Source: Candidatus Cloacimonadota bacterium
Lineage (GTDB): Bacteria > Cloacimonadota > Cloacimonadia > JGIOTU-2
Reading direction: 5' to 3'
Length of the DNA stretch: 47,427 nt
Assembly: GCA_016932035.1 (NCBI GenBank)
Contig: JAFGDR010000008.1
Coordinates: 1 to 47,427, forward strand
Below are positions 3,662 to 15,281 of the stretch, piece by piece; the stretch's first letter is position 1, and the number at the start of each line of letters is the position of its first letter. Below the pieces are notes generated by a model. That model was not told where the DNA came from. It ran no database searches and worked only from the letters and a program-made list of their open reading frames with translations. The translations under genes were made by a program, and so were the position numbers.

Positions 3662-4486
3662 ATGTTTTTACTAAGTAAATTATGCAGAGAAAGTTGTGCA
3701 ACCTCTTTTTATACGAAAAACAAGGAGGAGGTATTGCGCGAACTCGTTGTTCTCGTTAAGAAATGCCCGAAACTAAAAGATATTGATTCGGCAAAAATAT
3801 ATACAGCATTGAAAGCGAGGGAGAAGCTTGGAAGCACAGGATTGGGCGGCGGTATTGCCATTCCACATGCTAAGATCGAAGGACTTGATGACTTTGTCCT
3901 TGCACTTGCCACATCCAAGAAGGGTGTTCCTTTTGAAGCAATTGATAACAGGAAAGTGCATATATTTTTTGTGCTGCTCGGTCCATCAAATTCACCCAAT
4001 GAACATCTTAAAATGCTCTCGGCAATTTCGCGAATGCTCAGAGATGAAGATGTGAAAAATGAACTTATCGCAGCCCGTTCCGGAGAATCCATCTATGAAA
4101 CGATCGCTATGTACAGCGGTGAAGAAGCTAGAAAGGACCTTCCCCAAGAAAAAAAGAAGCTTCTCATGATCATTCTTTACGAACAGAAATTTCTTGAAGA
4201 TATCATGGAACTCTTTCTTGAACTCGGCGTGAAAGGTTCAACGGTGATCGATTCACAGGGCATGGGTGGAATTCTCACAAAAGTCCCGCTCTTTGCCGAT
4301 TTTATAAATTTCCTTGGTGAAAATAAAAATTACAGTAAGACCATCTTTGCAATTATCAGCGAATCTGAGCTTCACACGATCATACGCAGTGTAGAAAATC
4401 TGCTTGGAGACCTTGATAAACGCGGAGGGGCATCCATCATTGCGCTTGACATTCATTTCGTCAAAGGCACGATGGAATATATGTAA
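3662..4486 (+). CDS. PTS-IIA-like domain fused to a P-II-like regulatory domain
   Basis: This is a 274-residue cytoplasmic protein. Residues about 20-155 resemble the PTS EIIA type 2 (fructose/nitrogen, PtsN) fold, with the phosphorylatable histidine in GIAIPHAK (H69) and the following strand/helix pattern up to EHLKMLSAISRMLRD. Residues about 163-274 (from KKLLMIILYEQ to GTMEYM) look like a small ferredoxin-like, P-II-type domain. Known IIA-Ntr proteins control K+ transporters by binding in one phosphorylation state. Placement directly behind a cation antiporter, without room for a promoter, suggests this protein gates that transporter; this is inference. No EI or HPr gene is in the window. 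The start at 3662 has GAGG nearby, but residues 1-18 are atypical. Confidence 0.75.
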   Translation: MFLLSKLCRESCATSFYTKNKEEVLRELVVLVKKCPKLKDIDSAKIYTALKAREKLGSTGLGGGIAIPHAKIEGLDDFVLALATSKKGVPFEAIDNRKVHIFFVLLGPSNSPNEHLKMLSAISRMLRDEDVKNELIAARSGESIYETIAMYSGEEARKDLPQEKKKLLMIILYEQKFLEDIMELFLELGVKGSTVIDSQGMGGILTKVPLFADFINFLGENKNYSKTIFAIISESELHTIIRSVENLLGDLDKRGGASIIALDIHFVKGTMEYM

Positions 4487-4504
4487 AAAAAAAATAGGAG
4501 CGTC

Positions 4505-7267
4505 ATGAAAAAATTATTTCTTATTGCAACCTTAATACTCATACTACAACCCTTGCAAGCAGATCCACCTGCAACATACGATCTTCGCGATGTGAATGGG
4601 CAAAACTATGTGACTACTGTAAAAAACCAGACCGGCGGCACGTGCTGGACACATGGTGCAATGGCATCCATCGAAGGAAATCTTTTGATAACAGGCATCT
4701 GGGCTGCACACGGTGAAGTGGGAGAACCGAATCTTGCAGAATATCATCTCGACTGGTGGAATGGATTTAATCAGTTCAATAATGATGACCTTATCCCACC
4801 ATCCGGAAGTGGATTGGAAGTGCATCAGGGTGGTGACTATCGAGTGACAGCAGCGTACCTTTCACGCGGTGAAGGGGCAGTGCGTGATATCGACGGTCAA
4901 TCCTATTCAACTGCACCGTCGCGCTCCGAACCAAGTTACCACTTCTACTACGTAAATGATATCGAATGGTATGTTGCGGGAAGCGATTTGAGTAATATCA
5001 ATACGATAAAAAATAAAGTGATGGAATATGGGGTCATGGGCACCTGTTTATGTTATGACTCACAATTCATAAGCAGTTATATACATTATCAACCTCCAAC
5101 ATCCTCTCTCGATCCGAATCATGCAGTTGCTATTGTCGGCTGGGATGATAACAAAGTAACGCAAGCTCCTCTTCCAGGTGCATGGCTGATAAAGAATAGC
5201 TGGGGTGCAAGCTGGGGACTCAGCGGCTACTTCTGGATATCCTATTATGATAAACATTGCGGACAAAATCCCGAAATGGGCGCAGTCTCACTGTACAATG
5301 CCGTACTTCAGCCATATAATAGAATTTATTATCATGACTATCACGGATGGAGAGATACGCTCACACAGTACAATCAAGCATTTAATAAATTCATAGCGCA
5401 AGATGACGAAGTACTCAAAGCTGTTTCCTTTTTCACCGCAACCGATGATGTCGATTATACGATAAAAATCTATGATGATTTTCAGAGTGGAATCCTCCAA
5501 AACGAACTCACATCTCAAATAGGAAATATCGAATATACCGGCTTTCATACTATCACATTAGACACACCAGTCATGCTCGAAGATGCTGATGATTTCTATG
5601 TTTATATCATGTTTTCAGACGGCGGACATGCTATCGACAGAACGTCAGAAGTTCCGGTTCTTCTCGGAGCAGATTACCGAACAATTGTTGAATCCTCTGC
5701 AAATCCCGATGAAAGCTATTATCATGATGGATTCAGCTGGCAGGATCTTTATAATTACAATTTTACGAATCCTTCATGGGATGAGACAGCAAACTTCTGT
5801 ATTAAAGCGCTGACAAAATCGAGAGGTATAAAAGTAATTCCCGAAGAATCATTCGACTCATCAGGTCCGGAAGGCGGTCCCTTCTCCCCTGTTGAAAAAA
5901 CATATTCTATAATAAATAATGAAGCCACAACGATCTCTATCGAAGTTACTCACGATCTCTCATGTGACTGGATAACACTTTCGGGGGACATCTTCTGCAT
6001 AGTTGCCCCAGGTGATACCGCAGAAATAACAGTTCAGATTAACACTAATGCAAACATGCTTCCGAGCGGTGTTCATTCAAAGGCACTATACTTCACGAAT
6101 CTGTCTAATCATTATGGTGATACAGAGCTCGAAGTGAAACTCGCAGTCGGTGAACCAACGCTCCGATACAGCTGGTATATGGACCTTGATCCGAATTGGA
6201 ACATGGAAAATCAGTGGGCATTCGGACAGCCAACTGGCGGCGGTGGTCAATATGGAGGACCCGATCCGACAGCAGGATATACCGGCAATTATGTGATGGG
6301 TTATAACCTCTCCGGAGACTATCCAAATAATCTCCCGGAAACAAATCTAACAACTACTGCAATTAATTGTTCGGACATGTATGGTGTGACATTGAAGTTC
6401 TGGCGATGGCTCGGCGTCGAACAGCCGCAGTATGATCATGCATACGTGCGTATCAGTAATGATGGAATGAACTGGTATACGATCTGGGAAAATGAGGAAA
6501 CGATCGAGGATGAAGCTTGGTCACAGATGGAGTTCGATATCTCCGAATATGCAGATGACCAACCAACAGTATATCTCCGCTGGGTTATGGGTCAAACAGA
6601 TGGCGGTTGGCGCTACTGCGGATGGAATATCGATGATATCGAGATATATGCGTATGATGAAGTATTTTCCCCAATAGAACTTTCATCCTTCGAAGCTGCA
6701 TATGCTGACTCAACAGGATCGGTTCATCTAACATGGGTCACACTCAGTGAAACCGATATTGTTGGCTATAATTTGTATAGATCAGTTACAGATGATTTTG
6801 CTACTGCTTACCAAATAAATACTTCCATAATTCCCGGTCATGCACCAACGACTAATCCTCATATATATGATTTCAATGATGAAACTGCAAGTATAACTAC
6901 CCTATATTATTACTGGTTGCAAGCGCTTGGTTTCGGAGGATACAACGAAATCTACGGCTCATTCATCTATGAACCAAATGTCAGTAACGATAACGAACCG
7001 GAACAGCAATATCTGAGTATGAAAAACTTCCCAAATCCCTTTTCCGGTTCAACAGAAATATCCTTTGCGCTCGCAAGAACGGAAAAAGTTCAGCTTCAAG
7101 TTTATAATCTCAAAGGACAGCTTGTTGACATAATACTTGACGAAATCAAACCAGCTGGTAATCACACATGTGTCTGGAATGCAGAGAATTCTACATCAGG
7201 CATCTATTTCATAAAGCTCTCTTCAAAAGAAGTGTCAAAGGTTCAAAAAGTAATTCTGATAAAATAA
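4505..7267 (+). CDS. secreted papain-like (C1A) cysteine peptidase with T9SS sorting domain
   Basis: A signal peptide (residues 1-19) is followed at once by a papain-like catalytic domain with no long propeptide. The nucleophile C47 lies in GGTCWTHGA, H206 in DPNHAVAIVGW and N231 in IKNSWG. A lectin-like or jelly-roll domain follows (about 270-430), then a BACON/Ig-like segment (about 450-550), a MAM-like jelly roll (about 555-720, ending WRYCGWNIDDIEIYA) and a fibronectin-like segment (about 725-815). Residues about 840-920 form a T9SS type A sorting domain: FPNPFSGSTEIS, VYNLKGQLV, SGIYFIK and a final KVILIK. It is expected to be exported by Sec, sent through the type IX system and anchored or released after removal of the C-terminus. 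TAGGAG precedes the ATG; the gene starts 18 bp after the IIA/P-II gene. Confidence 0.9.
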   Translation: MKKLFLIATLILILQPLQADPPATYDLRDVNGQNYVTTVKNQTGGTCWTHGAMASIEGNLLITGIWAAHGEVGEPNLAEYHLDWWNGFNQFNNDDLIPPSGSGLEVHQGGDYRVTAAYLSRGEGAVRDIDGQSYSTAPSRSEPSYHFYYVNDIEWYVAGSDLSNINTIKNKVMEYGVMGTCLCYDSQFISSYIHYQPPTSSLDPNHAVAIVGWDDNKVTQAPLPGAWLIKNSWGASWGLSGYFWISYYDKHCGQNPEMGAVSLYNAVLQPYNRIYYHDYHGWRDTLTQYNQAFNKFIAQDDEVLKAVSFFTATDDVDYTIKIYDDFQSGILQNELTSQIGNIEYTGFHTITLDTPVMLEDADDFYVYIMFSDGGHAIDRTSEVPVLLGADYRTIVESSANPDESYYHDGFSWQDLYNYNFTNPSWDETANFCIKALTKSRGIKVIPEESFDSSGPEGGPFSPVEKTYSIINNEATTISIEVTHDLSCDWITLSGDIFCIVAPGDTAEITVQINTNANMLPSGVHSKALYFTNLSNHYGDTELEVKLAVGEPTLRYSWYMDLDPNWNMENQWAFGQPTGGGGQYGGPDPTAGYTGNYVMGYNLSGDYPNNLPETNLTTTAINCSDMYGVTLKFWRWLGVEQPQYDHAYVRISNDGMNWYTIWENEETIEDEAWSQMEFDISEYADDQPTVYLRWVMGQTDGGWRYCGWNIDDIEIYAYDEVFSPIELSSFEAAYADSTGSVHLTWVTLSETDIVGYNLYRSVTDDFATAYQINTSIIPGHAPTTNPHIYDFNDETASITTLYYYWLQALGFGGYNEIYGSFIYEPNVSNDNEPEQQYLSMKNFPNPFSGSTEISFALARTEKVQLQVYNLKGQLVDIILDEIKPAGNHTCVWNAENSTSGIYFIKLSSKEVSKVQKVILIK

Positions 7268-7272
7268 AAAAA

Positions 7273-7292
7273 TTGCCCTCGGGCAAAAGGGG
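7273..7292 (+). promoter_or_regulatory. short hairpin abutting the ribosome-binding site of the C45 gene
   Basis: TTGCCC (7273-7278) and GGGCAA (7281-7286) form a compact stem directly before the Shine-Dalgarno AAGGGG (7287-7292) of the gene at 7297. There is no U-run, so it is not an obvious terminator. It may affect translation or mRNA processing between the two hydrolase genes. Confidence 0.35.
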
Positions 7293-7296
7293 TAAC

Positions 7297-9615
7297 ATGA
7301 ACGTTAAGAAAACAAAAGGTGGTCTTGCTTTAATTATTTTCTGTGCACTTGTTATAACAATTTCTACCACCACTCTTTGTGCAGAAAATGAAATCGTAAC
7401 TAAAATTACACGTGTCGATACCACACAAACATTGCAGAGTTTTGATCATATCGGCGAATTCCACACGATCGACTTTGTCGGTGATTATCAATATCTCCTC
7501 GATATTGTGAACAATTGGTTTGCAGACGGAAAAAATCAAAATACCAACAATTATTTCTGCAGTCTCTTCTCTGCACTCGGTAATGTAGATGAACTCCTCA
7601 TGGGCAGGAATTTCGATAATCCCTATTGTGATATTCTCGTCGGTCGATATAATCCGCCTGATGGCTATTCAAATATTGCTCTTAACCGTTTGGCAGACAT
7701 CGGGCTTCCTGCTGGAACGAATTTTCAAAATCTTTCATACAACCAAAGCCTGAGGTTGCTCTTTTCTCCCTATTTTGCTGCAGATGGCGTGAATGAAGCT
7801 GGTCTCGCCATTGGTATAGCATACGTGCCGGGTGTTCAAATCCAGGTTGATCCAACCAAGGAAAGTGTATGGGTAACTCGTGTTATTAGAGAAGTGCTAG
7901 ACTATGCAAGTACGGTCGATGAGGCACTGGCAATCGCAAACAGCTATAATGTCTTTGATACCGGAACAAATAATGACATCCTTTCACACCACTACATCGT
8001 AACCGATGCAAGCGAAGCATCATATATCCTCGAATATGTTGTCGACCAGTTCGTAGCGATCGTGCCGACAGTGGATTGGCAGGTACTGACGAACTCACAC
8101 ATCTATAACATCCCGCTATACCAGCTTTTAAATGGATGTTGGAGATACAATATCCTGTATACATCTCTTCAAAATTACGGTGGATGTGTTGATTTTCGTG
8201 AAGGTTTTGAATTGCTTTCCAATGTTTCATGGGGTAATCAAACAAACGGAACTCAGTGGTCAACAATGTACGATATCAATAATTGTGGGACATTCATCTC
8301 AACATATCGAGATTTTGAAAATCTTGTGTATGTCGACGTTGCAAATTTCGAATTTCTCAACTACAGCGGATATGATATTTTGAACTTCTCGTATCAAGAC
8401 GATAATGCTAATTACATAATCGAATCCGAAGAATCAGCAGAATTCTATCTCATGTTCGAACCTGCCTTTACAAGTACTGGCGTAACCGGTATTCTGCATA
8501 CAGATGATCCCGATGTTGACATTCTTAATGATGAAGTCGATTTTGGAACGGTCAACGCAGGTAATTTCGGATATAATGGTGGTGATCCTTTTATTATCCA
8601 GGCAGTGACTGACATGACACCGCACACCGTTGATTTTTCAATAACACTTGTAACAGATTATGATTTCGAATACGTATATGACTTCTCTGTATTCATTGGT
8701 TCAGGAAACTTACTGCTGGTAAATGATGATCCCGAAAACAACTACTCCTCATTCTATCAGGACGCACTCACTGAGCATAGCAGGACAGGTCATGAGTGGG
8801 ATACATCCTTTCTTGGAGAAATTCCTATCGCTCTTTGTGATGCCTACGGATCACTCATCTGGTTCACCGGAGATGCTAGCGAAGATATACTGAGTCCGGT
8901 TGAAAAAATGCTGCTCAAAGATTTTATGGATTCAGGTGGAAATGTATTTCTCACCGGGCAGGATGTGTGTGAGTGCATCAATGGCACTGACCTCTTTTCT
9001 GATTATTTTCATGCCCAGCTCGAACTCGAAGCATGGCCATTTTATGACGTTTCCGGATTGGATGCCGATCCGGTCGGTGACGGAATAACATTCTCTATTT
9101 CAGGAGGTAATGGCGCGAATAATCAGATTACACAAAGTGCAATTTGTGCTGACGCACAAGCAGTAACCTGTTTGACATATGATGGATGTCCGGTCAGTTG
9201 CGGTGTTCGATATGATGGATTATATAAGAGTGTACTCATGAGTTTTGGCTTTGAGGGTATTTCAACCCTTGCAGACAGAGCAGAAGTAATGAATAGGATC
9301 ATGGAATACTTTGAAGTTCCCGTCAGCAATGATCCTCAGAATCCTGAACAGGATATAGTTTCTCTTTCACCTGCTTTCCCCAATCCCTTCTCATCCTTAA
9401 CAAATATCTCTTTTTCTCTCCCCCATCCCGAAAAAGTGAAAATTCAGATATATAACTTAAAAGGACAGCTTGTCGAAACACTCCTCGATAAACAAAAACC
9501 TGCAGGAAATCATACAATGGAATGGAATGCGGAGCAAATGAGTTCAGGGATATATTTTATAAAATTAATAACAGAAGATAAACATATCATACAAAAGGTG
9601 GTTGTGATAAAATAA
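7297..9615 (+). CDS. secreted Ntn-hydrolase (C45/linear amide C-N hydrolase-like) with T9SS sorting domain
   Basis: I choose the ATG at 7297 because AAGGGG lies just upstream and a signal peptide begins at once (residues 1-29, ending TTLCAEN). The 772-residue product carries an Ntn-hydrolase domain of the acyl-CoA:6-APA acyltransferase / choloylglycine hydrolase type. The likely nucleophile is C88 (NYFCSLFSA), with GRNFD at residues 102-106 and GLAIGIAY about 70 residues later. Such enzymes cut linear amide bonds; the substrate is unknown. A central Rossmann/GATase-like segment (about 460-660, FMDSGGNVFLTGQDV) follows. The C-terminus is a T9SS type A sorting domain: FPNPFSSLTNIS, YNLKGQLVETL, SGIYFIK and KVVVIK. 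This tail closely matches that of the preceding C1A peptidase, and the gap is only 29 bp, so the two are probably co-transcribed and co-secreted. Confidence 0.8.
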   Translation: MNVKKTKGGLALIIFCALVITISTTTLCAENEIVTKITRVDTTQTLQSFDHIGEFHTIDFVGDYQYLLDIVNNWFADGKNQNTNNYFCSLFSALGNVDELLMGRNFDNPYCDILVGRYNPPDGYSNIALNRLADIGLPAGTNFQNLSYNQSLRLLFSPYFAADGVNEAGLAIGIAYVPGVQIQVDPTKESVWVTRVIREVLDYASTVDEALAIANSYNVFDTGTNNDILSHHYIVTDASEASYILEYVVDQFVAIVPTVDWQVLTNSHIYNIPLYQLLNGCWRYNILYTSLQNYGGCVDFREGFELLSNVSWGNQTNGTQWSTMYDINNCGTFISTYRDFENLVYVDVANFEFLNYSGYDILNFSYQDDNANYIIESEESAEFYLMFEPAFTSTGVTGILHTDDPDVDILNDEVDFGTVNAGNFGYNGGDPFIIQAVTDMTPHTVDFSITLVTDYDFEYVYDFSVFIGSGNLLLVNDDPENNYSSFYQDALTEHSRTGHEWDTSFLGEIPIALCDAYGSLIWFTGDASEDILSPVEKMLLKDFMDSGGNVFLTGQDVCECINGTDLFSDYFHAQLELEAWPFYDVSGLDADPVGDGITFSISGGNGANNQITQSAICADAQAVTCLTYDGCPVSCGVRYDGLYKSVLMSFGFEGISTLADRAEVMNRIMEYFEVPVSNDPQNPEQDIVSLSPAFPNPFSSLTNISFSLPHPEKVKIQIYNLKGQLVETLLDKQKPAGNHTMEWNAEQMSSGIYFIKLITEDKHIIQKVVVIK

Positions 9616-9660: not shown

Positions 9661-9735
9661 ACCTTCGCAATGGTTAAGGAACGAAACCTTGCGAATGGTT
9701 ATCCGATATATCATTTTGATATACAATATATCAAT
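9651..9735. repeat. palindrome chain with imperfect 17-bp direct repeats
   Basis: AAGGTT-TTT-AACCTT is a perfect palindrome at 9651-9665. Two near-copies follow: AACCTTCGCAATGGTTA (9660-9676) and AACCTTGCGAATGGTTA (9685-9701). Their centres TTCGCAA and TTGCGAA are reverse complements, so they can also pair with each other. TATATCA-TTT-TGATATA forms a further hairpin just downstream (about 9707-9723). The arrangement resembles a repetitive extragenic palindrome or a decayed miniature element. No other copy is apparent in the window. Confidence 0.5.
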
Positions 9736-9832
9736 CAAAATAGGTAAAACACATAAATCCTACAATTTGATTTTCTGTAAATTTAAGCTAACTTACACTA
9801 TGCATGTAGATTATAGAATTTGCGGAAATTTT

Positions 9833-9848
9833 TGGCACAGAACTTGTA
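9833..9848 (+). promoter_or_regulatory. candidate sigma-54 (-24/-12) promoter
   Basis: TGGCAC (9833-9838) and TTGTA (9844-9848) match the -24/-12 consensus TGGCAC-N5-TTGCW with the exact 12-bp spacing between the two G positions; the only mismatch is T for C at -12. It would start a transcript near 9860, giving a leader of about 190 nt before the PDZ gene. A sigma-54-dependent activator is encoded 4 kb away (13926-15281). No enhancer site has been identified. Confidence 0.5.
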
Positions 9849-9883
9849 AAGTATAAAAGGAAAAAGTACATAGAGGTGTTCAC

Positions 9884-9952
9884 ATGAAGCATAGTTCAAT
9901 TATTTTAATATGGAAACATAGAAAAAAGCTATATAACCTCCCTAAGAAATAA
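9884..9952 (+). CDS. possible 22-residue leader peptide
   Basis: An ATG at 9884, preceded by GAGGTG 6 nt upstream, opens 22 codons rich in Lys, Ile and Leu (MKHSSIILIW, then a basic KHRKK stretch, ending LPKK) before TAA. It lies between the sigma-54-like promoter and the terminator-like hairpin. An inverted repeat, AAGCTAT (9926-9932) with ATAGCTT (9954-9960), brackets its 3' end. It could be a leader peptide or a chance ORF; length alone cannot decide. Confidence 0.3.
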   Translation: MKHSSIILIWKHRKKLYNLPKK

Positions 9953-9965
9953 CATAGCTTCACAT

Positions 9966-10020
9966 AGGGAAGCACCTCTTCCTCTCAAACGGAAGAGTCC
10001 CCCGCTTCCCTCCCTTTTTC
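9966..10020 (+). terminator. nested terminator-like hairpin (possible attenuator) before the PDZ gene
   Basis: The outer arms AGGGAAGC (9966-9973) and GCTTCCCT (10004-10011) are an exact 8-bp match. Inside them CTCTTCC (9976-9982) pairs with GGAAGAG (9991-9997). CCCTTTTTC follows. It ends only 32 nt before the ATG at 10053, leaving little room for another promoter, so readthrough or conditional folding seems needed for expression of the PDZ gene from upstream. Confidence 0.5.
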
Positions 10021-10052
10021 AAAAAATTCGTATTAACGAAAGGAGAAACAAG

Positions 10053-11258
10053 ATGAAAAAGTTAAGTGTTATCCTGGTTGTATTGCTCCTTGGAGCAACA
10101 ACCATACTCAATGCAGACCATCCATTTACGTATATGGTTGATGGATGGGGACAAGAAGATGTTGACATCAACATTGACCTATCTGAACTCAAGGACCTCA
10201 AGAAATTGCAGGAAGAACAAATCAAGAAATCAATCCAGATCTCAATGGGAGATTATAGTGAAGATTCACCACTTCTTGGTGTTTACCTTGCAGATTTGAC
10301 ATTCAAAGAAGCCTATGAAATGCACTATGATTATAATTATGGTGTTCTTCTTTCTGGTGTTGTTCCGGGTGGAGCAGCTCAACAAGCAGGTTTGATGAAA
10401 GGTGACATAATTATGGAATTCGCCGGTCAAAAACCACGCTATGAAGCTCAGCTTTCAACAATGATCAAGAGCCAAAAAGTCGGCGATGCAGTTGATATTG
10501 TCTTTTTCAGAAATGAACAAATTTATGAGACTGTTGCAGTTCTTCAATCACGTCAAAAACCTAAAGTTGATGAAACAACAGGCCAGATGATTATACCCCA
10601 AAAGCCAAAATTGGATGCAGGTGGAGGCGGTGGCAGCTGGATACCTATGTGGTTCGTTGACAAAAATAAATTTGAAGACGTAAACAAAATCATCAAAGCA
10701 TTCGGTTTTGCACCTCTTCGAGAAGACGGCATGTTCCTGAATGGCTTTGGTGGTAAGGGTAATATTGGCAAGAATTGGTTCCTTGGCGGCTTGGGTGAGT
10801 GGTATGATATCGACAGAAAGATGATCGATACTACTGGTGTAAAACGCATGAAATATAGTCTTGGATTTGGTGGTGTTACACTTGATAAGCGCTTAATGCT
10901 CAGCAAGAACCTTGCTACATCCCTTGGCTTTATGCTTGGCTGGGGAGGTCATACACTCGAACTTTCTCATGTTGGTGATAACTATGATTGGAACCAGCTG
11001 AACACTCAACTTGCAAGTTCTAATAATAACTATGTAAAACTTGAGAAAAATTACATTCTGTTCCAACCAAAATTTGAAGTACTATATCGCTTAACAGACT
11101 GGCTTGGTATTCGTGCAGCAGTTGGATATATGCTCAGCTACTCATACCATAGCGGCTGGAATGCAAATATCTGCGATGACATCTTTGAAGTGAAGAATTC
11201 ACCTGAAACCAAACTTGATGGCCTAACGATCAGCGTTGGTCCATGGTTCGGATTCTAA
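10053..11258 (+). CDS. exported PDZ-domain protein with a beta-barrel-like C-terminal half
   Basis: This 401-residue protein has a signal peptide (residues 1-21, ending TILNADH). An acidic/helical linker (about 35-70) leads to a PDZ domain (about 74-170), with GVVPGGAAQQAGLMKGDIIMEF as the ligand-binding core. A Gly/Pro-rich spacer (KPKLDAGGGGGSW) comes next, then about 190 residues of alternating beta-strand character ending in WFGF. The C-terminal phenylalanine is typical of outer-membrane barrels, but the barrel is short. No protease triad is present, so it is not a DegP-type peptidase. The PDZ part probably binds peptide ends in the periplasm while the C-terminal half sits in or at the outer membrane; that split is inference. 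It is preceded by an unusual leader and followed by a terminator. Confidence 0.7.
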   Translation: MKKLSVILVVLLLGATTILNADHPFTYMVDGWGQEDVDINIDLSELKDLKKLQEEQIKKSIQISMGDYSEDSPLLGVYLADLTFKEAYEMHYDYNYGVLLSGVVPGGAAQQAGLMKGDIIMEFAGQKPRYEAQLSTMIKSQKVGDAVDIVFFRNEQIYETVAVLQSRQKPKVDETTGQMIIPQKPKLDAGGGGGSWIPMWFVDKNKFEDVNKIIKAFGFAPLREDGMFLNGFGGKGNIGKNWFLGGLGEWYDIDRKMIDTTGVKRMKYSLGFGGVTLDKRLMLSKNLATSLGFMLGWGGHTLELSHVGDNYDWNQLNTQLASSNNNYVKLEKNYILFQPKFEVLYRLTDWLGIRAAVGYMLSYSYHSGWNANICDDIFEVKNSPETKLDGLTISVGPWFGF

Positions 11259-11269
11259 AAGGTTTATAT

Positions 11270-11300
11270 AAAGCCCCGCCATTATCGACGGGGCTTTTTT
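11270..11300 (+). terminator. Rho-independent terminator after the PDZ gene
   Basis: AAGCCCCG and CGGGGCTT form a GC-rich stem around an approximately 10-nt loop, followed by TTTTTT. It lies 12 bp after the PDZ stop and just before the AAGGAG of the next gene, so the lipoprotein at 11313 is likely to need readthrough or a promoter inside this short gap. Confidence 0.9.
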
Positions 11301-11312
11301 AAGGAGTCATTC

Positions 11313-12071
11313 ATGAAAATAATTAAGCTACTCATCGTACTTATACTCATTCCTCTGCTATTCGCATCCTGTGAGATCCGCTTCGATGGCGATAAAATAC
11401 GCGTGAAAGGCATTACACTTGAACATTCTCGAGTTATCACGCTTACAGATAGTAAAACATATGATACATTCACTGTTGAAGCTCACTCGGGAAATATTTC
11501 TCTTAAAGGCGATTCATCCTATCAATTAGAAGTAAAAGTATGGGAACGATATGAGAATGATGTAATGTTGTCATTAGAAAATGGTAAACTAGTTGGCGAA
11601 ACAGCTTCAGGAAAACCATTTGCCATTGCATCGATCGAAGGAATCATACCTTCAAAATCTTCTATTGATATAGAAACAGGTGCTGGAAATATCCTGATTG
11701 ATAACATCGAAGGAAAAGCCTTTGAGGTAGAATCCGGTGCAGGAAATCTGAATTTCAGTAATTGCACGTATCCGTTTATGGAGTTCTCAACGGGTGCCGG
11801 GAATATAATGGTTACCAACGCTGAAACCGATGCAATAGAAATGAATACAGGTGCTGGAAATATCCTTATTAAATCCCTTATCACAGAAAGACTTGATTGC
11901 AATACAGGAGTAGGTAATATTGATGTATATAACTCAACGGCAAAAGTGGCAGAGTGCAACTCAGGTATTGGAAATATATCCGTATCAGAATCTCAATTTG
12001 AAAAACATGACCTTAATACAGGCATTGGCAAGATTAACTATCGTAATAATGGGAGTTCTGTCGAACTATAA
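11313..12071 (+). CDS. beta-solenoid (DUF4097-like) lipoprotein with seven 19-residue repeats
   Basis: Signal peptidase II cleavage is predicted at LFAS|C (Cys about 20). The 252-residue product then has an introductory beta segment and, from about residue 115, seven tandem units of exactly 19 residues built on the pattern [E/D]-x-x-[S/T]-G-[A/V/I]-G-N-[I/L]. The cores read TGAGNI, SGAGNL, TGAGNI, TGAGNI, TGVGNI, SGIGNI and TGIGKI. Regular Gly-Asn turns at this period are expected to stack as a single-stranded beta-helix, as in DUF4097/DUF2807-type proteins. The role is unknown; a membrane-anchored scaffold or adhesin is possible. AAGGAG precedes the ATG, and a terminator follows the gene. 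Confidence 0.75.
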   Translation: MKIIKLLIVLILIPLLFASCEIRFDGDKIRVKGITLEHSRVITLTDSKTYDTFTVEAHSGNISLKGDSSYQLEVKVWERYENDVMLSLENGKLVGETASGKPFAIASIEGIIPSKSSIDIETGAGNILIDNIEGKAFEVESGAGNLNFSNCTYPFMEFSTGAGNIMVTNAETDAIEMNTGAGNILIKSLITERLDCNTGVGNIDVYNSTAKVAECNSGIGNISVSESQFEKHDLNTGIGKINYRNNGSSVEL

Positions 12072-12084
12072 ACATAGCAATTGA

Positions 12085-12122
12085 AAGAGGATAGGTTCCA
12101 ACCAAACTTATCCTCTTTTTTT
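12085..12122 (+). terminator. Rho-independent terminator after the solenoid lipoprotein
   Basis: AGAGGATA pairs with TATCCTCT, with an inner GGTT/AACC extension, and is followed by a run of seven T. It lies 15 bp past the stop at 12071 and ends that transcription unit before the DUF4390 operon. Confidence 0.85.
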
Positions 12123-12188: not shown

Positions 12189-12752
12189 ATGCTCGGATCT
12201 TTATCGAAAAAAATAACATCTTTAGTCATAGCCGCCAGCTCATTGTTCTCTTCGCACCTAACCCCTATATTCGAAAACTGCACCTATCGCCTGCAGGATG
12301 ATGTGTTGATATTCACAGGACAATTATCCAATTGCTATAATAAAGATATTGAACAGATCATGCAGTCCGGGCAAAGAATTTTGTTGGAATTTACCTACAG
12401 GATACATGAGCAGGGTAACAATATCCCGCTTCATGTCAACTCAGAAACACATGTCATCACCTATGATGTTGTGGACAGGGTTTATACTATTGATTTTACT
12501 GAAAATGGGGAAAGTACCATTTATCTTGATTTCCTGGAAGCAAAAAGACATTTCGTCCGGCTTGAAGAGTTAGCTATCCAGCATATTGATTTTTTTGAAG
12601 AGGGAAGAAGGTACTTTTTTGAGATCACTGCTACTCTAAAACCGGTGTATCTTGAGGAAATGGAAAATAATATCGAGTTGATGAAATACTGGAATAATTC
12701 ACCTCCCTCATATTCTTCACCATCCTTTTCCCTACGCGAACTCGAATCATGA
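12189..12752 (+). CDS. DUF4390-like exported protein
   Basis: This 187-residue protein has an N-terminal hydrophobic segment (about residues 8-24) that acts as a signal or anchor, then a single beta-rich domain with the DUF4390 flavour: ILLEFTYRI, VITYDVVDRVYTIDF and RRYFFEITATLKPVY. In other bacteria DUF4390 genes sit directly before an NtrY-type histidine kinase, as here: the stop overlaps the kinase ATG in an ATGA. It may sense or deliver an envelope signal to that kinase. The C-terminal tail is rich in Ser and Pro. AGGAG lies about 8 nt before the ATG. The family assignment is from pattern and context. Confidence 0.65.
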   Translation: MLGSLSKKITSLVIAASSLFSSHLTPIFENCTYRLQDDVLIFTGQLSNCYNKDIEQIMQSGQRILLEFTYRIHEQGNNIPLHVNSETHVITYDVVDRVYTIDFTENGESTIYLDFLEAKRHFVRLEELAIQHIDFFEEGRRYFFEITATLKPVYLEEMENNIELMKYWNNSPPSYSSPSFSLRELES

Positions 12753-13945
12753 AACTTCCTTCTTTTAAAATACAGATCATTGTTATCATGTTCATCCTTC
12801 TGGTGCTGTCCGGGCTTTTCACCAGATATTTTTTCATGACTCAATTCAATGACTATTCTAAGGATATCACCTCACTCAAACTGTATGATCAAGTACATAA
12901 TCTATACAGCAATCATAAAGATAGTATAGACAAAGAAGAAGTCTCCAAGATCCTAACTGATATTAACAAAATCGAGCTAACAACCTATCTTTTCCAAAAG
13001 GATATGACCCTTTATTCTACCCTGTATGTTGTTATATCAGGACTCGTCGTACTTATTATTATGCTCATTGTGCTTACGCTTATTACCAGACCGCTCAACC
13101 GGCTGCAGACAGGAACTAAAAAGATCGCTGGTGGAGATTTGAAAGTAAGAGTTCGTGAATCTCGTTTTTCTCCTATTAATGGACTGATCGTTTCCTTTAA
13201 CAACATGGTGGAAGAACTCGAGAGTAATAGAGATAAATTAGTCCAGGCGGAAAAAGATATGATGTGGCGTGAAATGGCTCAGGTTATGGCGCATGAAATC
13301 AAAAATCCACTTACCCCGCTTCGGCTTTCTGCCGAACGAATGGAGATGAAATATTGGGGAAAAAGTGAGAACTTTGATAAAATTTTCCAAGATTCGATGG
13401 AAGTTATCAATGAGGAAATTAACAATCTTCAGCACCTTGTGAAGGAATTCTCGCGGTTTGCCCGAATGCCCTCCGCAAATTTCGAACATTACGACATCAA
13501 TGAGCAGATACGCGACATCATCGCACCCTATCGCACAAAAGCAGATATCACACTCTCCCTCGATCCGGAGCTCCCTGAATTCTATGGAGATAGAATGCAG
13601 ATGAAGCAGGTTTTTGTGAATCTAATCCAGAATGCGATCCAGGCATCTTCCTCTCGAAGTATTATCGAAATATCTTCAAGGACTGATGGTGCTTTATTCA
13701 TATTTTCCATCAAAGATTCAGGTGAAGGTATTTCTCCAGAGGATATGGAACGTATCTTCCGCCCCTATTATACGACAAAGGAAAAAGGAACAGGACTGGG
13801 GCTTTCAATTGTGAAGAGGATGATAACCCAGCATCAGGGCACGATTGAGGTTGACAGCAAAAAGGGTGAAGGTACAACATTTACAATAAGAATTCAGATA
13901 CAAAAGAAACATAAAGAAGCAGAAAATGAAGATTTTAGTTATTGA
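12749..13945 (+). CDS. NtrY-like membrane sensor histidine kinase
   Basis: This 398-residue kinase has a first membrane helix (about 8-29), a short periplasmic part of about 60 residues, a second helix (about 91-113) and a HAMP domain (about 112-165). HisKA carries the H-box AHEIKNPLTPLRLS with H182. HATPase_c has the N-box NLIQNAIQ, DSGEGIS and GTGLGLS. The domain order and the ARMP segment after the H-box match NtrY kinases. It overlaps the upstream DUF4390 gene by 4 nt and the downstream response regulator by 20 nt, so all three are translationally coupled. The small sensor region suggests it reads a partner protein or membrane state rather than a bulky ligand. Confidence 0.9.
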   Translation: MKLPSFKIQIIVIMFILLVLSGLFTRYFFMTQFNDYSKDITSLKLYDQVHNLYSNHKDSIDKEEVSKILTDINKIELTTYLFQKDMTLYSTLYVVISGLVVLIIMLIVLTLITRPLNRLQTGTKKIAGGDLKVRVRESRFSPINGLIVSFNNMVEELESNRDKLVQAEKDMMWREMAQVMAHEIKNPLTPLRLSAERMEMKYWGKSENFDKIFQDSMEVINEEINNLQHLVKEFSRFARMPSANFEHYDINEQIRDIIAPYRTKADITLSLDPELPEFYGDRMQMKQVFVNLIQNAIQASSSRSIIEISSRTDGALFIFSIKDSGEGISPEDMERIFRPYYTTKEKGTGLGLSIVKRMITQHQGTIEVDSKKGEGTTFTIRIQIQKKHKEAENEDFSY

Positions 13946-15281
13946 CGACGAAAAAAATATTCGACGCACACTGACGGATATTCTTGAAGATGAGGGCTAT
14001 ACTGTCCTCGATGCTGTATCGGGGGAAGAGGGATTGCAGGTTCTTGCCCGGGAAAACATCGATCTCCTTCTTCTCGACGTGAAACTCTCAGGTATGGACG
14101 GCATTGAAGTGCTGAAAAAAGTACGTAAGGATTTCCCCTCTCTCGACGTGATCATGATTTCAGGTCACAGTACGATCAAAACTGCAGTTCAAGCAGTACA
14201 GATGGGTGCTTATAACTTCCTCGAAAAACCGCTTTCTCTGCATAAAATTATTGTATCAGCTCGTAATATCGCTGACAAGATCAAACTCTACAAGAAATAT
14301 AATGAAGAACAAAAGGATATTGAATCCCATTATAAGATGATCGGCATCTCACCTGAATTTGAAAGAGTGAGAAGTCTTATAGAGAAGGTCAGCAAGACGG
14401 ACAGTAAAGTCTTGATACGTGGTGAAAGCGGAACAGGTAAAGAGCTGGTTGCCTATGCAATTCATAATAAAAGCGAGCGTAAGAATGGACCGTTCGTAAA
14501 ATTTAACTCAGCTGCTATTCCAAACGAACTGGTCGAGAGTGAACTTTTCGGTCATGAGAAAGGTGCCTTCACCGGCGCTGAGGATAAGAAACTCGGAAAG
14601 CTTGAAGTTGCACATGAAGGAACCCTTTTCCTCGATGAGATCGGAGACATGAACCTGAATGCACAGGCAAAAATGCTTCGTGTGATCCAGGAAGGAAAAT
14701 TCGAGCGCATCGGGTCTAACAACATCATCGATATCGATGTACGTATCCTTGCTGCAACAAACAAAAACCTCGAGCAAATGGTGCAGGATGGTACGTTCCG
14801 GGAAGACCTTTTCTACCGACTCAATGTGATCCCCATCATCATCCCGCCGCTGCGGGAAAGAATATCGGACATCCCCGTTCTCCTTGAGTATTATCTTGAT
14901 TACTATGCAGTTGAACTAAAAGATCATCCAAAGAAATTTTCATCGCAGGCGATGCGGCTTCTGCAAAGTTATCCATTCCCGGGAAATATCAGGGAATTGA
15001 AAAATCTTATTGAGCGACTGTATATTATTTCACCAGAAAAAATTATTACCGAATCAGATGTCGCACCCCAGATAAAAATGCTTCCTGCAAAGGCAAAAGC
15101 AGAGACGCATCTTTTTGAAATCAATAATTTTACAGACGCCAAAAAACAGTTTGAAATAGATTATTTGAAAGAACAGCTTGACAAATATAATTGGAATATA
15201 AGTCTTACGGCTGAAAATATCGGTCTTCAGCAATCAAATCTTTCACGTAAATTGAAGGATCTCGGGATCGATAAAGATTAG
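13926..15281 (+). CDS. NtrC-family sigma-54-dependent response regulator
   Basis: This 451-residue protein has three domains. The receiver (residues 1-120) has the acidic pocket D7/D8, phospho-acceptor D51 (LLLLDVKLSGMDG) and K102 in LEKP. The AAA+ sigma-54 activator domain (about 140-370) has Walker A GESGTGKE, the sigma-54-contacting GAFTGA loop and Walker B GTLFLDEIGDM. A Fis-type helix-turn-helix lies at the end (SLTAENIGLQQSNLSRKLKDLGI). It is the cognate partner of the overlapping kinase. Its regulon is unknown, but a sigma-54-like promoter lies 4 kb upstream, before the PDZ gene. PlsY starts 19 bp downstream. Confidence 0.95.
   Translation: MKILVIDDEKNIRRTLTDILEDEGYTVLDAVSGEEGLQVLARENIDLLLLDVKLSGMDGIEVLKKVRKDFPSLDVIMISGHSTIKTAVQAVQMGAYNFLEKPLSLHKIIVSARNIADKIKLYKKYNEEQKDIESHYKMIGISPEFERVRSLIEKVSKTDSKVLIRGESGTGKELVAYAIHNKSERKNGPFVKFNSAAIPNELVESELFGHEKGAFTGAEDKKLGKLEVAHEGTLFLDEIGDMNLNAQAKMLRVIQEGKFERIGSNNIIDIDVRILAATNKNLEQMVQDGTFREDLFYRLNVIPIIIPPLRERISDIPVLLEYYLDYYAVELKDHPKKFSSQAMRLLQSYPFPGNIRELKNLIERLYIISPEKIITESDVAPQIKMLPAKAKAETHLFEINNFTDAKKQFEIDYLKEQLDKYNWNISLTAENIGLQQSNLSRKLKDLGIDKD

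Follow-up and report, generated by a model that had tools for sequence, protein, structure and literature searches.

A regulated gene unit of an uncultivated Cloacimonadota bacterium near Candidatus Celaenobacter begins in the stretch at positions 9833-10052. On balance, it would probably be transcribed under NtrX/sigma-54 control into an RNA with a tiny-protein gene as first cistron, a leaky intercistronic hairpin and, reached by read-through, the gene of a PDZ protein. An earlier note had described a regulatory leader behind a sigma-54 promoter; the leader appears to be real and sigma-54 the right factor, and the new element looks like a small conserved protein gene under a seemingly dedicated activator. 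Coordinates refer to the window, i.e. the whole analysed stretch of 47,427 nt, whose source genome comprises 2.44 Mb and has Candidatus Celaenobacter antarcticus (Cloacimonadota) as the closest named relative found. The literature search returned no paper on sigma-54 in Cloacimonadota, and the locus offers a concrete testable unit (conserved activator site, sigma-54 promoter, target, candidate activator) for a phylum in which hardly any gene regulation has been studied. The following features were assigned.

9707-9733, + strand: putative upstream activator palindrome TATATCA-TTT-TGATATA with a third half-site TATATCA (at a constant distance from the -24 box throughout the family; class-wide presence)
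9833-9848, + strand: sigma-54 (-24/-12) promoter TGGCACAGAACTTGTA (conserved before PDZ genes; rpoN present)
9872-9878, + strand: Shine-Dalgarno AGAGGTG of the small ORF (ATAGAGGTGTT invariant in 9 of 10 aligned leaders)
9884-9952, + strand: 22-codon gene MKHSSIILIWKHRKKLYNLPKK (open in 12 family leaders; unannotated)
9955-9961, + strand: invariant motif TAGCTTC (in all 12 ORF-bearing family leaders, just after the small-ORF stop, overlapping the stop in L019)
9966-10019, + strand: hairpin between the cistrons, with T5 run; it probably serves as a leaky terminator or stabilises 3' ends (folding z; alignment)
10053-11258, + strand: gene of a PDZ protein that has a signal peptide and a beta-rich C-terminal domain; the promoter's target (Pfam; structure model; orthologues)
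11270-11301, + strand: terminator-like hairpin behind the PDZ gene, GCCCCG...CGGGGC with a trailing TTTTTT (sequence)
12189-12752, + strand: DUF4390 protein, PlrP-like (Pfam PF14334, E 1.9e-7)
12749-13945, + strand: sensor histidine kinase with HAMP, HisKA and HATPase domains (Pfam; synteny with PDZ)
13926-15281, + strand: NtrX-like sigma-54 response regulator, candidate activator (Pfam; NCBIfam)

Sigma-54 promoter and putative activator palindrome

TGGCAC-N5-TTGT at 9833-9847 was the sole match to TGGCAYNNNNNTTGY within the window; 0.29 matches were expected per shuffled window, so that the single match alone is not significant. Among 38 PDZ upstream regions, a match at 10 or more of 12 positions was present in 79%, compared with 1% of dinucleotide shuffles, and the -24/-12 promoter with exact spacing that had been read from the letters of the window is thus a conserved one. 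TGGCAC-N5-TTG is kept, with only the final base of the -12 box deviating in the genus (T or A; TTGT in the window vs consensus TTGC). The site has the GG/GC boxes at -24/-12 and the fixed spacing of sigma-54-dependent, enhancer-activated promoters, and it is accompanied by the further attributes of this class, namely a predicted upstream activator site, a sigma-54 activator gene and the sigma-54 gene rpoN, which was found in the window genome and in 17 relatives searched alongside. The -24/-12 site predicts a transcription start at ~9859.

At E ≤ 0.001, 56 of 60 genomes gave an orthologue of the PDZ gene, some of these hits being other PDZ proteins. Promoter and palindrome recur before this same gene across Cloacimonadota and in some Neomarinimicrobiota, and in many other lineages the promoter lies directly before PDZ, 42-63 nt from its start. 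In family f2 (L047, ORF at ~4247-4680, upstream of PDZ), the first cistron under the same promoter encodes a PDZ-like protein of >100 aa, which replaces the tiny ORF.

The palindrome, which the earlier note had not mentioned, lies upstream of the -24 motif, its core beginning 121-125 bp away in most family f1 and f4 loci and ~80-115 bp away in more distant loci. The window genome contains 13 sites of the palindrome type, and only that at 9707-9733 precedes a well-spaced sigma-54 site; a search of this genome for a wider regulon gave no second palindrome/sigma-54 pair. Two other good sigma-54 sites of the genome, before a pilin-like ORF (L089, G000:C31:80154) and before a 428-aa dehydrogenase-like ORF (L093, G000:C43:22823), lack the palindrome.

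The 22-codon ORF as a protein gene

In sequence comparison, the 22-codon ORF behaves as a conserved gene for a predicted tiny protein. The short ORF with its Shine-Dalgarno had been recognised before and is present; its conservation at the protein level had gone unmentioned. The frame is open, at 21-24 codons, in 12 family leaders, which comprise 7 genus members (window included) and L037, L038, L019, L039 and L070. Within the genus pN/pS was 0.23; between genera, 0.58-0.86 synonymous vs 0.22-0.39 nonsynonymous differences per site were counted, with pS > pN in every pair. A test for synonymous excess on the genus changes alone gave P = 0.07, which is suggestive only. A ribosome-binding site and an open frame kept with synonymous bias, as in small-protein genes, were thus both found. 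The encoded peptide is basic, includes a conserved tryptophan and keeps the residues S5, I6, W10, R13, L16 and Y17. A profile search of 60 genomes gave strong matches (E about 1e-9 or better) solely at PDZ loci, both G015 copies included, and the ORF is absent from most of the class.

Constraint at the RNA level was also considered. Positions 9929-9964 (36 nt) do not differ among the 7 genus members, even at third codon positions. Given the rate of synonymous change in the PDZ gene, such a block has a chance of ~0.001, for a stretch that was picked after the fact, and the PDZ gene too has one invariant run, of 38 nt, in the genus; the block hints at an extra constraint on the RNA.

In family f4 (Tenebribacter and relatives) the same position is occupied by a different 24-aa ORF, MKNLxxKWxEKK..., with pN/pS of 0.30, whose end adjoins the PDZ ribosome-binding site. 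Homology of the f1 and f4 peptides was not accepted (hhalign probability 0.4%), and neither had a known family in Pfam or NCBIfam at E ≤ 1. It is possible, though doubtful, that these basic, tryptophan-bearing peptides of 21-24 aa constitute a new family and are made first within a Cloacimonadota envelope regulon under NtrX-like/sigma-54 control, having arisen or been kept at the same position in f1 and f4, with feedback on the sensor kinase or membrane and with the intercistronic hairpin setting the peptide:PDZ ratio. Such a tiny-protein family is unannotated, and its occurrence as the first cistron in both bacterial families points to a role in regulation.

Intercistronic hairpin

The hairpin consists of an outer stem (9966-9973/10004-10011) and an inner stem (9976-9982/9991-9997), followed by T5 at 10015-10019, with 33 nt left to the PDZ start. 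The folding z of the region was -3.7 in the window and -2.3 to -4.6 in ten leaders (genus, L008 and L012), L009 having the hairpin of L008; the folding signal was lost in L019, L039 and L070. The double hairpin with U-run before PDZ, as first described, is present, but only part of it is shared: the outer hairpin is kept in the genus and, in a sequence-changed version, in L008/L009 and in L012, where the small ORF has been lost, whereas the inner hairpin is by alignment an insertion unique to the window and was rejected as a functional element. The stem is stable as in an intrinsic terminator, but the U-run stands 3 nt (CCC) off and is confined to the genus, and a slipped form in which it adjoins the stem costs 0.2-5.5 kcal/mol. 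For these reasons the hairpin is plausible as a leaky terminator and less so as an efficient one. It was not flagged in the terminator scan. A short RNA of ~160 nt ending there is possible.

PDZ gene and linked signalling genes

Pfam PDZ matches of the 10053-11258 product fall just below the cut-off, and a structure model of moderate confidence predicts an HtrA-like PDZ domain; the product is classed as an outer-membrane-type protein. The gene has its own Shine-Dalgarno. In the alignment no conserved promoter was seen between the hairpin and its start, so that its expression would need read-through. Several relatives have similar GC-rich hairpins after PDZ. A short TCCCGA-N-TCGGGA-type palindrome is found repeatedly in separate species, either at the start of the PDZ gene or in frame inside that start (L049 ~2445-2464, L034 5981-6000, L019 on the minus strand, L037 5143-5160), where it reads ...NPDLSGK or ...SPDLSGK and may be an inserted palindromic element. 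Upstream, at 4505-9615, the window contains two large adjoining ORFs with C-terminal secretion sorting domains, one for a papain-like protease with a lectin-like domain and one for a choloylglycine-hydrolase-like protein.

At most loci with enough flank, Neomarinimicrobiota included, PDZ is followed within a few kb by genes for a histidine kinase and for a sigma-54 activator resembling NtrX; the Celaenobacter family and a small number of others also have a recognisable DUF4390 gene at the PDZ locus. In the window the order is DUF4390, kinase, NtrX-like regulator, the best NCBIfam matches of the last being NtrX (438 bits, cut-off 600) and then NtrC, both below their cut-offs. An NtrC-class activator gene 4 kb away had been predicted and is represented by this regulator. 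Because of its synteny with PDZ and its best matches, it is likely to be the activator of the 9833-9848 promoter. The comparison gives good support to the idea that an NtrC-type activator is in control, with rpoN present, promoter and upstream palindrome conserved and the activator gene syntenic.

Terminator-like hairpins lie after PDZ (11270-11301) and after the DUF4097 gene (12083-12119), which makes a transcript shared between PDZ and the kinase genes doubtful. The latter hairpin, strong and with a T7 run, stands between the DUF4097 and DUF4390 genes, and the DUF4390-kinase-regulator genes therefore probably have a separate promoter. The DUF4097 protein (11313-12071) has a sub-threshold match to LiaG (39.8 bits vs cut-off 285), an envelope-stress family.

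Proposed transcription unit and alternative readings

In the proposed mechanism, 9707-11301 would form one transcription unit driven by sigma-54. The NtrX-like regulator encoded 4 kb downstream would most likely bind the palindrome at 9707-9733, transcription would start at ~9859, and the first cistron (9884-9952) would give the 22-aa basic peptide with its conserved tryptophan. Between the cistrons, the 9966-10011 hairpin, whose U-run is displaced, may then either terminate leakily or stabilise 3' ends: some transcripts would end at ~10019, giving a peptide mRNA of roughly 160 nt, whereas read-through polymerases would transcribe the PDZ gene and stop at the hairpin behind it. The peptide may act in trans, with the inner membrane or the sensor kinase as conceivable targets. 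Comparison across genomes supports the promoter, the palindrome, the synteny, the coding nature of the ORF and the conservation of the hairpin. Points against the model are the P = 0.07 of the genus test, the genus-only U-run 3 nt off the stem, the hairpin signal lost in L019, L039 and L070, a peptide that is without known relative and absent from most of the class, and the 36-nt invariant block.

That block, together with the invariant TAGCTTC after the stop, would also fit a cis-acting translated leader, in which ribosomes translating the small ORF determine whether the hairpin forms or whether the PDZ ribosome-binding site is accessible, and the peptide itself is irrelevant. This is considered unlikely. 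The PDZ Shine-Dalgarno of L037/L038 pairs with CTTCTCCC, located directly behind the small-ORF stop, and the modelled accessibility of this Shine-Dalgarno about doubles upon ribosome occupancy (0.22 to 0.44-0.48), but the genus, window included, gave no consistent change in accessibility; sequestration of the PDZ ribosome-binding site, clear in L037/L038 only, was rejected as a general mechanism. The f4 ORF ending next to the PDZ ribosome-binding site and an alternative pairing GCTTC/GAAGC that competes with the hairpin in 6 of 7 genus members speak for a cis role, whereas L012 keeps the hairpin without the ORF, a run of regulatory codons is absent, and the conserved residues are not C-terminal, unlike those of arrest peptides. 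The covariance analysis of the leader in related genomes, which the earlier note had proposed, yielded RNAalifold pairs without covariation. These pairs and the accessibility calculations would be compatible with a cis role of the leader, clearest in L037/L038.

A sigma-54-dependent small RNA like GlmY, with the ORF incidental, would account for the promoter with its activator site, the short transcript ending in a hairpin, the nearby kinase and activator genes, the invariant TAGCTTC and the C-rich tail. It is a decidedly improbable reading, since the ORF is kept at the protein level, the U-run is unconserved beyond the genus, PDZ follows without a promoter of its own and the Rfam search gave no match to a known RNA family.

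The earlier note had further proposed that competing stems, AAGCTAT/ATAGCTT (9926-9932/9954-9960) versus TGAAGC/GCTTCA (9885-9890/9957-9962), decide terminator formation. Both can form in the window, and the former is part of the predicted minimum-energy fold of the leader, but they are not conserved: AAGCTAT/ATAGCTT is broken in 3 of 7 genus members (L002, L004, L006) and TGAAGC/GCTTCA in 5 of 7; each of the six members other than the window has at least one broken stem. In both cases a lysine codon that differs synonymously (AAG/AAA) causes the break, and compensatory changes are absent. The stems are absent in other genera, and neither of them includes the arms of the terminator hairpin. 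With the small ORF behaving as a protein gene and L012 keeping the hairpin without it, attenuation through these stems is unsupported and very improbable, and for the stems tested the leader would fall outside the attenuators, in which mutually exclusive stems are conserved or covary. Finally, a chance assembly of motifs without common function is barely credible: about one shuffled window in four would be expected to contain a single match to the sigma-54 consensus, but palindrome, promoter, ORF and hairpin are jointly conserved in independent genomes.

Comparison with known systems

The transcript preferred here, with a tiny-protein gene and PDZ behind one sigma-54 promoter, has partial counterparts. 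The trp, tna and mgt leader-peptide attenuators carry a short ORF, a hairpin and a U-run before the regulated gene, and the window has the same arrangement, but it differs in having neither a regulatory codon run nor conserved C-terminal arrest residues, and in proposed competing stems that are not conserved.

In the CcaF1-CcsR locus of Rhodobacter, as in the window, a small protein is the first cistron and is followed by hairpin RNA, the CcaF1-CcsR transcript being stress-induced and including four small RNAs (PMC10253847). CcaF1 has 71 aa, a DUF1127 domain and an RpoH-type promoter, whereas the window peptide has 22 aa and gave no DUF1127 match. NtrYX systems of the PlrP-PlrSR type with a DUF4390 partner occur in proteobacteria beside rsmB and resemble the window in that the DUF4390 gene stands directly before the kinase and NtrX-like regulator genes, with overlapping start (PMC13001219); in the window, however, it is a PDZ gene driven by sigma-54 that precedes the signalling genes, and the kinase, at 398 aa, is shorter.

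In the enterobacterial GlmY-QseEGF system, a sigma-54 promoter with upstream activator sites gives a short transcript beside the genes of a sensor kinase, a periplasmic accessory protein and a sigma-54 activator, with a link to envelope homeostasis (PMC6075780). GlmY is a non-coding RNA, whereas the short transcript of the window holds a conserved ORF and would run on into the PDZ gene, and gene order and protein families differ. By analogy, the window locus, in which a sigma-54 promoter with a putative activator site and a predicted short transcript likewise adjoin kinase, accessory protein and activator genes, would work most like GlmY-QseEGF.
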